A stretch of 64,000 nucleotides of DNA from Promethearchaeia archaeon. GTDB taxonomy: Archaea; Asgardarchaeota; Lokiarchaeia; Sigyniarchaeales; SOKP01. The position numbers were made by a program, and so were the translations under genes. Shown in pieces: positions 25,290 to 64,000 of this stretch (its first letter is position 1; each line of letters opens with the position of its first letter). A model generated the notes under the pieces. It worked only from the letters and a program-made list of their open reading frames with translations, was not told the DNA's origin and did no database searches. Where the stretch lies: assembly GCA_029856045.1 (NCBI GenBank), contig JAHQWG010000016.1, forward strand, positions 251,921-315,920, given 5' to 3'.

Positions 25290-25868
25290 ATCTCTGAACT
25301 TAAACCCTTATTAAAATCATTTTTATTTGTGATTGGAGGCAATATTTGCATTGAAGTCGCAAAAGAGTTATTGAATTCAAAAAATAAAGAAATAACCGAT
25401 GATATAATAACGGAAAACATAAAGAAAAGAATTCAAGATATAAATATTGATTTTGAACCGGATGATGAGGAAAAATTAAAGTTAAATACGGTTCGAAAAA
25501 CATTATATAAATTATATTCAGCAAAATTAGCTCAATTTAGAAGAGTGAGGGATAAGAATACAGGTTGGTTTATCTATTATTGGTGGCATGATTTTGATAA
25601 GCTAAATGAGATTTTACTTGAAAAAGAGCAAAAAATAATAAGTAAATTAAGGGATCGATTAAGATATGAGTTAAATAATTATTTTTTTATTTGTGAAAAT
25701 TGTAGAAAACCTGAAACTCGGTTTATTTTTGATGACGCTGTAGATTTAAATTTCAAATGCCCTGTTGATGGTTGCGGAGGTAATTTAGTTGCAGATGAAA
25801 ACAAAAAAATAATTGATTTCTTAAAGGAAAAAATAGTTACACTTCAAGAAACAATAAAAAATTTTTAA
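25290..25868 (+). CDS. tfe: Transcription factor E (TFE alpha), ATC start proposed
   Basis: About 192 aa. TFE stabilises promoter opening and is the archaeal TFIIE-alpha counterpart. The N-terminal winged helix contains NTVRKTLYKLYSAKLAQFRR and the family signature DKNTGWFIYYW. The C-terminal zinc ribbon has CENC (about 148-151) and CPVDGCGG. The first ATG/GTG/TTG in frame is GTG 25329, yet similarity to the TFE N-terminus (SELKPLLKSFLF) runs upstream to about 25293. Between the in-frame stop at 25281 and 25329 only ATC 25290 looks usable. A start at GTG 25329 (179 aa) is the alternative. Confidence 0.93.
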   Translation: MSELKPLLKSFLFVIGGNICIEVAKELLNSKNKEITDDIITENIKKRIQDINIDFEPDDEEKLKLNTVRKTLYKLYSAKLAQFRRVRDKNTGWFIYYWWHDFDKLNEILLEKEQKIISKLRDRLRYELNNYFFICENCRKPETRFIFDDAVDLNFKCPVDGCGGNLVADENKKIIDFLKEKIVTLQETIKNF

Positions 25869-58354: not shown

Positions 58355-58373
58355 ATAAGGAAGGTGCCCGATT

Positions 58374-59342
58374 ATTAACTGCCCTGTATGTAACGTTGAG
58401 ATGGAACAACTCGTTCAAGAAATATTTCAATGTCCAAAGTGTAAAAAAATTATTAAAGGACAGATTAAAGAAATTAAAAAAAAGAAAGAAGTTGCTGTTG
58501 GAGAAATTCAAGAAGGAGATTATTTTCATAACAACGCTAGTTTAAATAAGAAATATGAAATTTGTGAAAAAGGAATTACAATATCTAAATCTCCAAATAG
58601 GTGGGTGGCAGCATTACTCTGTCATAGCTCCTATTTAAGCAGCTCTAAATATATCAGACTTAGTTGGTGGAAAAAGGAAATAAATACACATGCAGGCTTT
58701 TTCAAAATAACTGAATCTATAGTATTGGATAATTTAATCAAATCCTTAAAAAAAATAAATTCTTCATTTGATGAGTATTGGGGTAATTTTAAAGGATTTG
58801 AAAAAAAAAAAATAGAAACAGAAGAAAAAGCAATTCAAAATGAGCGTCTAAAAATTCTAAAGTATAGAATTCTCGAAAATAAAATTTGCCCGAATTGTAG
58901 TAAAAAATTATCATTAAGTAAAAGAAAAACACATTATGAATGTGAACACTGTGGCGAGATCATCATCTTGGAATCTCATAATGAACCTATTTTTAATATT
59001 GATCCTAAAGATCTCTCATTAGAATTCTCAACAAATTTTCCTATCAACTTTTACCTCCCCGTAGCGGGTATTACTATAGAATGGTTAATGAGTTTATGGA
59101 AAGCTATAGTTGTTATATATTCAAAAGATAACCCCAATAAGAAATGGTTAAGATTCTATGCTTGGGAAAGGAATTTGCAACAACTGCTAAAATACGGATA
59201 TTATGAAGCCGGTGATGGAGGACAATTATCTTGGACTACAAAAAAAGGAACAGGCTCACCTAATATTTTTGATAAATCAGAAGTCCCTATTCTAATAGAT
59301 GCTCTAAAAAAGCTTCAGAAAGAAATAGGTTGGGTTAAATAA
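58374..59342 (+). CDS. Zinc-ribbon protein of AAA+ array, ATT start proposed
   Basis: About 322 aa, family unknown. The first in-frame ATG is 58401, but the frame upstream encodes INCPVCNVEME, completing a zinc ribbon with CPKC (CPVC...CPKC). Starting at 58401 would cut the ribbon in half. No ATG, GTG or TTG lies between the in-frame stop (58356) and 58401. ATT 58371 or 58374 follows GGAAGGTG (58359-58366) at a normal distance. A second ribbon is at about 172-196 (CPNCSKKL ... CEHCGE). The C-terminus has RFYAWERNLQQLLKYGYYEA and GDGGQLSWTTKKGTG. Confidence 0.82.
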   Translation: MNCPVCNVEMEQLVQEIFQCPKCKKIIKGQIKEIKKKKEVAVGEIQEGDYFHNNASLNKKYEICEKGITISKSPNRWVAALLCHSSYLSSSKYIRLSWWKKEINTHAGFFKITESIVLDNLIKSLKKINSSFDEYWGNFKGFEKKKIETEEKAIQNERLKILKYRILENKICPNCSKKLSLSKRKTHYECEHCGEIIILESHNEPIFNIDPKDLSLEFSTNFPINFYLPVAGITIEWLMSLWKAIVVIYSKDNPNKKWLRFYAWERNLQQLLKYGYYEAGDGGQLSWTTKKGTGSPNIFDKSEVPILIDALKKLQKEIGWVK

Positions 59343-60551: not shown

Positions 60552-61820
60552 ATGGTTAGAGAAAGATGGACAGACATTTTAGCTAGATACTTAACATATT
60601 TAAGTCATCTGGTTCCAATTCTCAAAGAAACAAAGAAAACTGTCCAAAATATGAGTTTGGAAGTGATGATGGACGTAAAGATTTTTGATAAGATTAAAAT
60701 GGACGAAGAAAAACGATTAGTGAAGAAAGTGAGGGCTTTATCCGAATTCTCGGCATATTATAGAGGTGAAGTATTTGAAAATATAAAAAATTTTATATAC
60801 AAATATGCTGAGGATTTAGAACCTATAGATATTAAAGATTATCTAATTGAATTTTTTGATGAATGCATAAGTGCTTTAGAAATATTAATGAATGTTACAA
60901 ACCCAGATCAAAAAAAATTAAATTCCACATATTTATATCTTCTTTACAAATATTTAGAAGATCTTTTATTACCTATAGGTAAAAATTTTGAAGAAATTTA
61001 CATGAAGTTGAATAAAACATCAAAAAATTGGCATGAATGTCAAAGGTATATGATGATTCCTCATACATATTATAGGGAAACTGTGGATAACCCCGATTTC
61101 TTCGAAATTCCCGGTATTTCTCCAAAATTATACCAAATAATTAATAATATAACCTCTTTATACAACTTGGATCCTAATTATTATCCGTGTCCTGAAGATT
61201 CTAACATAGAAATTCCAGTAGTCTTGATTGAAGATGTTTTTGAAGCATTTATTGATAATATTGCTCATGAAGAGCAAGAAGCAGTTGAAAAAATTTGTGA
61301 ACGTTTAGGATTAAGAGTTCTAGATGGGATTTTTCTTGCTCCCAAGTATGATTTTATAGATGTTCTAATTAAACTTGATTTCCTTAGAGAGAATAAACAA
61401 TCTGATGGCAAGATTAGATTAATACCTCAATTCAGTAATGAAACTTTAATTTTAAGTTATCTAGCGTTCGTTTCTTTCCGTCGAGGTTTTTTATCTAAAG
61501 AATTAATTAATTGGATTTCTATGACATTTGCGTTCATTATTTTTTCAACGATTTTAAAATCTCAATTAAGTGATCATAATATTTTCTATCCTATTTTTAC
61601 TGGTTTGAAAACTCAAGAAAAAGTAATACCTTATATGATGAAACTTCTATGCTTTAATAATTATTTGAAATTAGATAGGATGAAAATACGAGATTCTGTC
61701 CAGTACAGAAAAGAAATTTTTAATTTTGCAGGATCTAGCATAGATTGCATTAAGCAATTAATTTTAGATTTAAGTGAATATTTAAAAGAAATAAAAAAAA
61801 AAAAAAAAGAAGGGGTGTAA
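60552..61820 (+). CDS. Hypothetical protein of AAA+ array with A16 tract
   Basis: 422 aa, largely helical, family unknown. Ribosome-binding TAGGGGGAAA sits about 8 bases before ATG. A hydrophobic helix FLSKELINWISMTFAFIIFS (about 312-331) is embedded, comparable with that in the preceding protein; the two may be distant relatives. The 3' end holds a run of 16 A (61793-61808) encoding Lys5, then GAAGGGGTGTAA, whose GGGGTG is also the likely ribosome-binding site for the AAA+ gene. Confidence 0.82.
   Translation: MVRERWTDILARYLTYLSHLVPILKETKKTVQNMSLEVMMDVKIFDKIKMDEEKRLVKKVRALSEFSAYYRGEVFENIKNFIYKYAEDLEPIDIKDYLIEFFDECISALEILMNVTNPDQKKLNSTYLYLLYKYLEDLLLPIGKNFEEIYMKLNKTSKNWHECQRYMMIPHTYYRETVDNPDFFEIPGISPKLYQIINNITSLYNLDPNYYPCPEDSNIEIPVVLIEDVFEAFIDNIAHEEQEAVEKICERLGLRVLDGIFLAPKYDFIDVLIKLDFLRENKQSDGKIRLIPQFSNETLILSYLAFVSFRRGFLSKELINWISMTFAFIIFSTILKSQLSDHNIFYPIFTGLKTQEKVIPYMMKLLCFNNYLKLDRMKIRDSVQYRKEIFNFAGSSIDCIKQLILDLSEYLKEIKKKKKEGV
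61793..61808 (+). repeat. A16 homopolymer inside a coding region
   Basis: Sixteen consecutive A residues near the 3' end of the 422-aa gene. Such tracts are prone to polymerase slippage and to assembly or sequencing error, so the exact C-terminus of that protein is less certain. Confidence 0.95.
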
Positions 61821-61826
61821 GAAAAA

Positions 61827-62903
61827 ATTACATATTCAGATGATGAAATTAAAGAAAGGCTTGATAAGTATGGAACGGTTTATTTACCAAATGAAATTAT
61901 AGAGAATGTTGATGATATTTTAGGAAATGAGATTCTAAAGGAAAGGCTTGAAGATTTTTTCAGTTCCTTAAAAAAATATAGTGAAGTTGTTGAAAAATTA
62001 AAAAAGACTAAATTAGTCCCAAATTTAACTGTCCTCCTATATGGACCACCTGGAACTGGAAAAACTTCTTTAGCTCGAGCATTTGCAAAGGAATTTGATA
62101 TCCCATTGTGTGTAGTAGAGTCTGACAGATTAGTTTCTGCATTATTAGGCGATACCGTTAAAAATATTAGAAAAGTTGTGGAATTATCAGCTCAGATTGC
62201 GGAAGAAAATGGAGCTTTTATATTGTTTTTTGATGAAATTGATGCAATTGCATCCGAAAGATCGAATATTCACGAAGTAGGCGAAATTAAAAGAGCTGTA
62301 ATATCTTTCTTACAAATAATTGATAAAATAAACTACTTTGGAACACCATTAGCAATTTTAGGTGCTACTAACCATCAAGACCAATTAGATTCTGCAATTT
62401 GGAGGAGATTCACATTTCATTTGAAATTTGATTTTCCTACATTTCATCTCAGGAAGAAAATAATTGAGGCTTTTATTAATAAAATTAGTAACGCAAAAAT
62501 TGGAGTAGATGATGTAATTCTTGTTAGTTTAAACAAAGAATATGCATTATTAAAATCTAAGGAAGAAAAATTAAAGCCTATAGTAAGAAATGAAAAATAT
62601 TCACAAGATTTGGATGAATTGTGGAATGATAAAAAAATTATCGAGAATAGAGGAATTTTATTTTTAACGCGTGGATACACAGGTGCAGATTTAGAGCGTG
62701 GAGTGAGAGTTGCTCTGTTTAAAGCATTAAAAAATGACATTTTAACCTATGAAAATTTTACCCATTCCTTAGAATTAGTAGGAGGTACTAAAATCCATGT
62801 TGAACAACAATATTTTTTGAGTGTTTCTGAAAGGAAATCTTCCAGGGATAAAAAAATATCAAGAATAAACAACAACAATCTGGAAGGTCCTCGTGAAATT
62901 TAA
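61827..62903 (+). CDS. AAA+ ATPase, ATT start proposed
   Basis: About 358 aa. Classic-AAA (Cdc48/FtsH/SpoVK-like) module: LLYGPPGTGKTSLARAFA (Walker A), ILFFDEIDAIASER (Walker B), LGATNHQDQLDSAIWRRF (sensor 1 and arginine finger) and LTRGYTGADLERGVRVALF (sensor 2). The helix YLPNEIIENVDDILGNEILK before the P loop is standard for AAA proteins. The first TTG (62106) lies after Walker A, so the real start must be upstream. No ATG/GTG/TTG exists in frame after the previous stop (61818-61820). ATT 61827 lies 9 bases after GGGGTG. No N-terminal substrate domain is present; the array partners may supply it. Confidence 0.9.
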   Translation: MTYSDDEIKERLDKYGTVYLPNEIIENVDDILGNEILKERLEDFFSSLKKYSEVVEKLKKTKLVPNLTVLLYGPPGTGKTSLARAFAKEFDIPLCVVESDRLVSALLGDTVKNIRKVVELSAQIAEENGAFILFFDEIDAIASERSNIHEVGEIKRAVISFLQIIDKINYFGTPLAILGATNHQDQLDSAIWRRFTFHLKFDFPTFHLRKKIIEAFINKISNAKIGVDDVILVSLNKEYALLKSKEEKLKPIVRNEKYSQDLDELWNDKKIIENRGILFLTRGYTGADLERGVRVALFKALKNDILTYENFTHSLELVGGTKIHVEQQYFLSVSERKSSRDKKISRINNNNLEGPREI

Positions 62904-62964: not shown

Positions 62965-64000
62965 ATGGAATCAGAGAACATAATCTTTTCTGCAGAAAGA
63001 ATAAAAGGATTAACTAATCCTATTGATAAAATTCGAGGAAAATTAAATTTAATTAATAAATTATATCTCAATTATAAAGAAACTCTAAAAAATTTACTTA
63101 AAAAACCCAATCTAATAGAGAATGATAGAATAAAATTCTTTAATGATTTAGATAACACATTAGAAGAAATATATTCAAAATTATCCAAAAACTCTGAACT
63201 TAACTTAGAAAATTGGTTGTCAATTAAAGATTTACTTTTATCTGAATATATTCTTTCAATAAAAAACATTTTAACAGAAAAAAAAATTTCTCAAGATTCT
63301 CTTAAAAAAGTTGGTATTTCATTAATTAAAAACAAGAAAGTATCATCTTTTTTAGAAAAAACAAGTTTTATTTTTTCACTCGATGTTGATTTTTGGGAAT
63401 CAATAGTTAATTCATTAAAAAATAACCCTGATTTTCTAAAAACCCTAAATAAAATAAAAAAATTTTGTCAAAATGAGAGGGAACGAATATTAAATATTGA
63501 ACTAAATAAAATTCCTAAAAACATCGACTATAAAATTATCAATGAGTTTAAAAAAGAATTCAGAAAAAACAAAATTTCTTTTAAAGAATTCATGATAACT
63601 TCAGAATCCAGATTTCCTAAAACTAAATTTGCCACCCAAAAGATTACTTTAGACACAAAAAAGAAAAAGAATGAACTTGATATATTAAAAGAAAAACAAG
63701 AGACACGATTCAAATCTTATGATAAATTATTTACTCTTTCCGAAGATGAATTTCAAAGATTAAAACGTAAAAAAAAAAGAAAAAAATTAGATTCTTTATC
63801 TAAATTAGAAAAAAAAGAATACCCTCCTGATGATAAAAAAAAGGAGAAGGACAAGAAAGAAGAATCAACCCAAACCACAAAACAAGATATATTTAGTAGA
63901 GATATAATAGAAAATAATGAAGCTGATATCGATCCTTTAGAAGTTATTAGAAAAAGAAAGCAAAAAAAGGAAGAAGAATTTGAAAAACACTTAAATAAAA
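62965..64000 (+). CDS. Lysine-rich hypothetical protein (partial, cut by window end)
   Basis: At least 345 aa; the frame is open to the window edge. It starts MESENIIFSAERIKGL. Residues 1-200 are helical with many Lys, Asn and Leu. After about 230 it becomes a highly charged Lys/Glu linker (RLKRKKKRKKLDSLSKLEKK, then KKKEKDKKEEST). The C-terminus lies outside the window. It is 61 bases after the AAA+ gene, same strand. Function unknown. Confidence 0.8.
   Translation, partial: MESENIIFSAERIKGLTNPIDKIRGKLNLINKLYLNYKETLKNLLKKPNLIENDRIKFFNDLDNTLEEIYSKLSKNSELNLENWLSIKDLLLSEYILSIKNILTEKKISQDSLKKVGISLIKNKKVSSFLEKTSFIFSLDVDFWESIVNSLKNNPDFLKTLNKIKKFCQNERERILNIELNKIPKNIDYKIINEFKKEFRKNKISFKEFMITSESRFPKTKFATQKITLDTKKKKNELDILKEKQETRFKSYDKLFTLSEDEFQRLKRKKKRKKLDSLSKLEKKEYPPDDKKKEKDKKEESTQTTKQDIFSRDIIENNEADIDPLEVIRKRKQKKEEEFEKHLNK

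Follow-up and report, generated by a model that had tools for sequence, protein, structure and literature searches.

The AAA+ ATPase gene and its start column

The window, i.e. the whole stretch of 64,000 nucleotides that was analysed (source genome G000, one of the Lokiarchaeia), contains a gene for an AAA+ ATPase without a standard start codon (Table 1). In the frame of this gene no ATG, GTG or TTG is present from the TAA of the preceding gene up to the TTG at 62106, as had been described in an earlier note on this DNA. The Walker A motif (GPPGTGKT) is encoded upstream of this TTG and occupies residues 73-80 when numbered from the ATT at 61827, so that a start at TTG 62106 would remove it. 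The placement of the Shine-Dalgarno-like GGGGTG ahead of the ATT was also found as first described. The translation from the ATT matches PF00004 with an E-value of 2e-28.

Table 1. Features of the window that bear on the use of non-standard start codons
Feature	Position	Strand	Remarks
TFE-like transcription factor gene	25290..25868	+	inferred ATC start; named from sequence features
Conserved gene of about 245 aa	46168..46905	+	inferred ATA (or neighbouring ATT) start after AGGTG
Zinc-ribbon protein, ATPase gene cluster	58371..59342	+	probable ATT start at 58371 or 58374, after AAGGAAGGTG
Conserved 422-aa protein, upstream gene	60552..61820	+	without family match; adjoins the AAA+ gene in nearly all examined orthologues
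GGGGTG, Shine-Dalgarno-like	61812..61817	+	9 nt 5' of the ATT; GAGGTG with one G-U wobble
TAA	61818..61820	+	stop of the 422-aa gene and in-frame bound of the AAA+ frame
Inferred ATT start codon of the AAA+ ATPase	61827..61829	+	from orthologue alignment
AAA+ ATPase, 358 aa, PF00004	61827..62903	+	domain nearest IetA and Cdc48-type

The gene product is a single-AAA+ protein near the IetA and Cdc48-type domains, and VCP-like ATPases were matched as well. Its ATPase domain is like that of IetA (PADLOC PDLC02196, E-value 3e-60), but the NF042959 score of 184.8 bits lies far under the cut-off of 510, and no protease family match that could indicate an IetS-like partner was obtained among the four neighbouring proteins tested. 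Both results speak against an identity as IetA defence ATPase. The gene sits in a conserved cluster, the proteins of which have no assigned families. The AlphaFold model of the ATPase is mediocre (pLDDT 62) but places the residues just after the ATT in a helix with a pLDDT of about 80. Elsewhere in G000, beyond the window, a GTPase gene of the OBG/DRG type with a split P-loop start was observed at about 178.7 kb of contig C27 on the minus strand (L103), and likewise in G004 (C6:1363, L118). In both genomes 'VLIGVVGK' and 'KPSSGKST' are about 50 nt apart with stops in between; the interruption may be an intron or a short insertion, or the gene may be broken.

Orthologues of the AAA+ gene, all of them MAG sequences, were collected from 53 of the 65 genomes of the family. 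The earlier note had proposed an N-terminal alignment with relatives as a check on the start. In the protein alignment of 24 members the first residue is that of ATT 61827, before Walker A, and the sequence is conserved from there on. Within the genus, the column of this codon holds ATT in G001, G002 and G004 and TTG in G003, the AAA+ protein of which is 77% identical. The ATT and the leader GAAGGGGTGTAAGAAAAA are common to four MAGs of the genus; GGGGTG is unchanged in G001, G004 and G002 and is found in the shifted form GGGTG in G003. In other genera the column holds ATG (G006, G010), ATT (G020, G078, G009) or ATA (G007), and in the sister family f2 it holds ATG or GTG. ATG is also present at the aligned start codon in G034 and G028, and GTG in G036. 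The column is the start in G003, G010, G034, G037 and G032, since in each of these five genomes the aligned NTG is preceded, at a distance of three codons, by an in-frame stop. A stop in frame is also often found two to three codons 5' of the AUN codon.

The missing NTG in G000 is not due to chance, since 20 of the 53 family orthologues, G000 included, have no in-frame ATG, GTG or TTG ahead of the conserved core. The codons found in these are ATT, ATA or GTT. In a second set of genera the N-terminus is 11 residues longer, and the start column there again holds ATG, ATT, ATA or GTT. Even near-identical sisters differ at the start (ATG in G066 vs ATA in G076), and the sister pair G051 and G055 has ATT and GTT, respectively. 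By parsimony, at least ten changes between NTG and non-NTG were counted on the gene tree, the 10 ambiguous genomes being left out. Where ATT codons are adjacent (G005, G019, G009, G023, G075), we infer the exact start codon. The gene combines standard starts at the same codon in relatives with a frame that is free of NTG from the upstream stop to where the protein becomes conserved. With ATG, GTG, TTG, ATT or ATA at the aligned codon of the orthologues and a conserved protein that starts there, translation of the ATPase from AUU 61827, one of two explanations given in the earlier note, is strongly supported by the comparison of sequences and close to certain.

AUN starts in other genes

The earlier note had treated the start as an isolated oddity, which did not hold up when other genes were scanned. 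For G000 the sample covered 300 kb, and contigs were used for G004, G016 and G020 of the same family. The controls came from the sister family f2 (G028, G030) and from two further Asgard families, f21 (G127, G156) and f7 (G108, G145). Orthologous genes were sought in which sequence conserved with a relative lies 5' of the first NTG, and the candidates were then reviewed by eye. Many candidates of a first loose scan were false (antisense ORFs, chance extension), and it was therefore replaced by a scored scan. Four candidates or candidate sets were set aside: G000_20/G004_2 with a broken P-loop, G000_86/G020_0 without distant support, G145_191, the alignment of which begins at residue 127 of its partner, and G145_209/G108_51, where the gene start has an ATG.

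In scans of about 100-170 genes, AUU, AUA, AUC or CUG starts were found for about 2-4% of the testable genes per Lokiarchaeial genome. These rates are lower bounds, because a chance GTG within the Shine-Dalgarno motif conceals a case. G000 yielded five of 170 genes (the ATPase with ATT, a TFE-like gene with ATC, a zinc-ribbon gene with ATT, a 251-codon ORF with ATA and a 405-codon ORF with ATT). The same five were found among 158 tested genes of G004, the orthologues of the two genomes not being independent of each other. G016 yielded two of 110 tested genes, both with ATA, and G020 about five of 160 (the ATPase, TFE, proteasome alpha and a 534-codon operon gene, all with ATT, and one gene with CTG). 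In the controls, one non-NTG start was found among 147 genes of f2 (the aIF1 gene), one among 182 genes of f21 (proteasome alpha of G127, ATT) and none among the 227 genes of f7 in the same scan. The ATT of the G127 proteasome alpha gene directly follows the leader GAGGTGAATTAA, like in G020.

The start column of the TFE-like gene holds ATA in G004, ATT in G020 and ATG in G016. For the zinc-ribbon gene, a CPxC motif is conserved 5' of ATG 58401 and the G016 orthologue has ATG at the aligned codon; translation probably begins at ATT 58371/58374 and not at ATG 58401. The gene of about 245 residues starts with ATG in both G016 and G020. Just past window position 64000, downstream of the ATPase cluster, a gene of about 525-540 codons was observed whose N-terminal region has no NTG start in either G016 (ATA) or G020 (ATT).

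In the four family genomes, a Shine-Dalgarno-like element precedes ATT near gene starts in 28 of 241 cases, vs 171 of 3127 for other codons (Fisher p = 3e-4). This enrichment at ATT is absent in the controls (14/226 vs 288/4812, p = 0.49), and in the same test ATA and ATC show none at gene starts. The test is a modest one, as Shine-Dalgarno motifs are sparse and weak in the Lokiarchaeial lineage. By this comparison, AUN starts (AUU, AUA and AUC, rarely also GUU or CUG) are tolerated recurrently, in a few percent of Lokiarchaeial genes.

The start of the aIF1 gene

The single non-NTG match in f2 was the aIF1 gene, which was therefore collected from 48 genomes. These represent the families f1 and f2, and genomes of f4, a family of the same order, were considered in addition. 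ATG is the start in none of the 48, and in 37 of them no ATG, GTG or TTG is present between the in-frame stop and the zinc knuckle CPxC. The usual layout is AAGGTTGTGA, followed by about 9 bases and then ATT AAA GAC. ATC is found in G008, ATA in genus g1 and in f2, TTG in genus g15 of f2 and GTG in G078. In G000 itself, the only SUI1 gene has its ATA at contig position 190763. An in-frame GTG lies four codons 5' of this ATA in G000, G001, G002 and G004; it is not conserved, as G003 has GGG. The comparison shows that the start of aIF1 is a non-AUG codon across f1 and f2; a lineage-wide non-AUG start is one trait expected of an infC-like autoregulated fidelity factor.

The aIF1 genes of f4 start with ATG. 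Elsewhere in Asgard archaea ATG is also the most common start; GTG prevails in f19, ATA is found in f11, f17 and f5 and probably in f16, and CTG in f15. CTG and ATA starts of other Asgard families (L230 in G087, L213 in G083, L216, L217) follow AGGAGG or GGAAGG. The SUI1 domain scores of the family of G000 are the lowest, at 46-70 bits vs 75-86 bits in many other Asgard archaea.

A possible aIF1 circuit and its alternatives

It is known that aIF1 promotes fidelity and lowers the stability of initiation complexes on non-AUG codons (PMC6237735). In the proposed mechanism, the GGGGTG 9 nt upstream would set initiation at AUU 61827, and the AUU would presumably be decoded as methionine by an ordinary CAU initiator tRNA. 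An odd initiator tRNA was considered and rejected: among the candidate loci, the one examined looks ordinary, with anticodon CAU, A1-U72, a GGG/CCC anticodon stem and an intron. Introns were observed in several tRNA genes of G000 (L161-L185), the initiator candidate among them, which were missed by ARAGORN. Starts at AUN codons are predicted to be weak and to respond to aIF1, which would lower initiation at them by destabilising the complexes. Because the aIF1 gene has a conserved AUU, AUA or AUC start, aIF1 most likely curbs its own synthesis, and its level would in turn tune other genes with AUN starts, such as the AAA+ ATPase. The feedback loop, the low efficiency of AUN starts and the decoding as methionine are what we infer from these patterns. 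Taken together, the start at AUU 61827, the tolerance of AUN starts in Lokiarchaeia and an aIF1 that limits itself and tunes AUN genes form a reading that we consider quite probable. For a circuit in Lokiarchaeia, and patchily in other Asgard archaea, in which aIF1 governs a whole AUN regulon (the ATPase, TFE, proteasome alpha and others), the chances appear evenly balanced.

The same starts could also reflect relaxed fidelity without any regulation, where poorly discriminating aIF1 or ribosomes permit a neutral drift to AUN codons and no feedback loop exists. The repeated switching on the ATPase gene tree, the AUN starts in many unrelated genes and the low SUI1 scores of a somewhat divergent aIF1 are in line with this explanation, and a start that changes freely between AUG and AUU fits relaxed constraint as well as it fits regulation. 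However, ATG is one mutation away and yet absent from aIF1 in all 48 genomes while the ATPase toggles, and AUA, CUG or GUG is found on aIF1 in further Asgard lineages too. Neutral relaxed fidelity accounts for the toggling ATPase start and less well for the ATG-free aIF1; as a complete explanation it is possible but the less probable one.

Termination-reinitiation, in which ribosomes that end the upstream gene restart close by and take the AUU without de novo codon selection, is improbable. TAA and ATT are just 6 nt apart in G000 and several relatives have short gaps as well, but the gaps are about 20-80 nt in most AAA+ orthologues with AUN starts.

The earlier note had also offered read-through of the TAA at 61818, yielding a fusion of 422+358 residues, because the AAA+ frame equals that of the preceding gene. 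This frame relation stands for G000 and G001 and breaks down in the sister genomes: of 51 orthologues, 40 have the upstream stop in a different frame, among them G002, G003 and G004 of the same genus, and the gap between this stop and the AAA+ start ranges from 5 to 80 nt across the family. Read-through was rejected since the frame relation is not conserved. Moreover, most same-frame orthologues have one or more additional stops, so that no single leaky stop is conserved between the two genes, and many relatives have an ordinary ATG; a fusion is hence very unlikely. Least credible of all is that the gene is a pseudogene or that the DNA was misread or misassembled: a run of 16 A lies just 5' of the start region, but independent MAGs (one contig labelled with about 72x coverage) carry the identical ATT and leader, and the ATPase core is intact and conserved, with a mean column identity of 72% over 24 sequences.

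Bacteria offer a parallel to the preferred reading, an aIF1 that restrains its own AUN start. Bacterial infC, the gene of IF3, starts with AUU or AUA; in S. aureus the start is AUA (PMC13009471), and E. coli IF3 is a repressor of its own translation. As with Lokiarchaeial aIF1, a fidelity factor is here encoded by a gene whose start codon it rejects. However, the folds of IF3 and aIF1 are not homologous (PMC7531240), non-AUG starts are common to more genes in Lokiarchaeia, and the aIF1 feedback is a proposal drawn from start codon patterns. In eukaryotes, eIF1, the orthologue of aIF1, keeps its own production low by way of an unfavourable start site; the autoregulation via an AUG in poor context is credited to Ivanov 2010 as cited in PMC6237735. 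This differs from the AUU or AUA after a Shine-Dalgarno-like element in aIF1.

Archaeal start codons have been described as AUG, GUG and UUG (PMC7531240). Among 61,358 reconstructed ancestral AUG starts in 36 prokaryote genome groups, a single switch to AUU was counted, a count that rests on annotation, which rarely calls AUU (PMC5622118). In the open-access literature (as distinct from subscription journals and preprints), no earlier report was found of AUU or other non-AUG starts in Asgard archaea or of aIF1 autoregulation.

If AUN starts occur in a few percent of the genes, many Lokiarchaeal gene models would be truncated or missed at their N-termini, including those of TFE, the proteasome and aIF1. 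Complex cells are considered to descend from ancestors closely related to Lokiarchaea, and the affected gene models are those used to argue about eukaryote origins. The AUN starts, that of the aIF1 gene included, suggest that protein synthesis is under a feedback control that had gone unrecognised. The aIF1 circuit, if true, would be the archaeal counterpart to the IF3 and eIF1 loops, and the non-AUG start of aIF1 suggests that start-fidelity feedback arose in all three domains.
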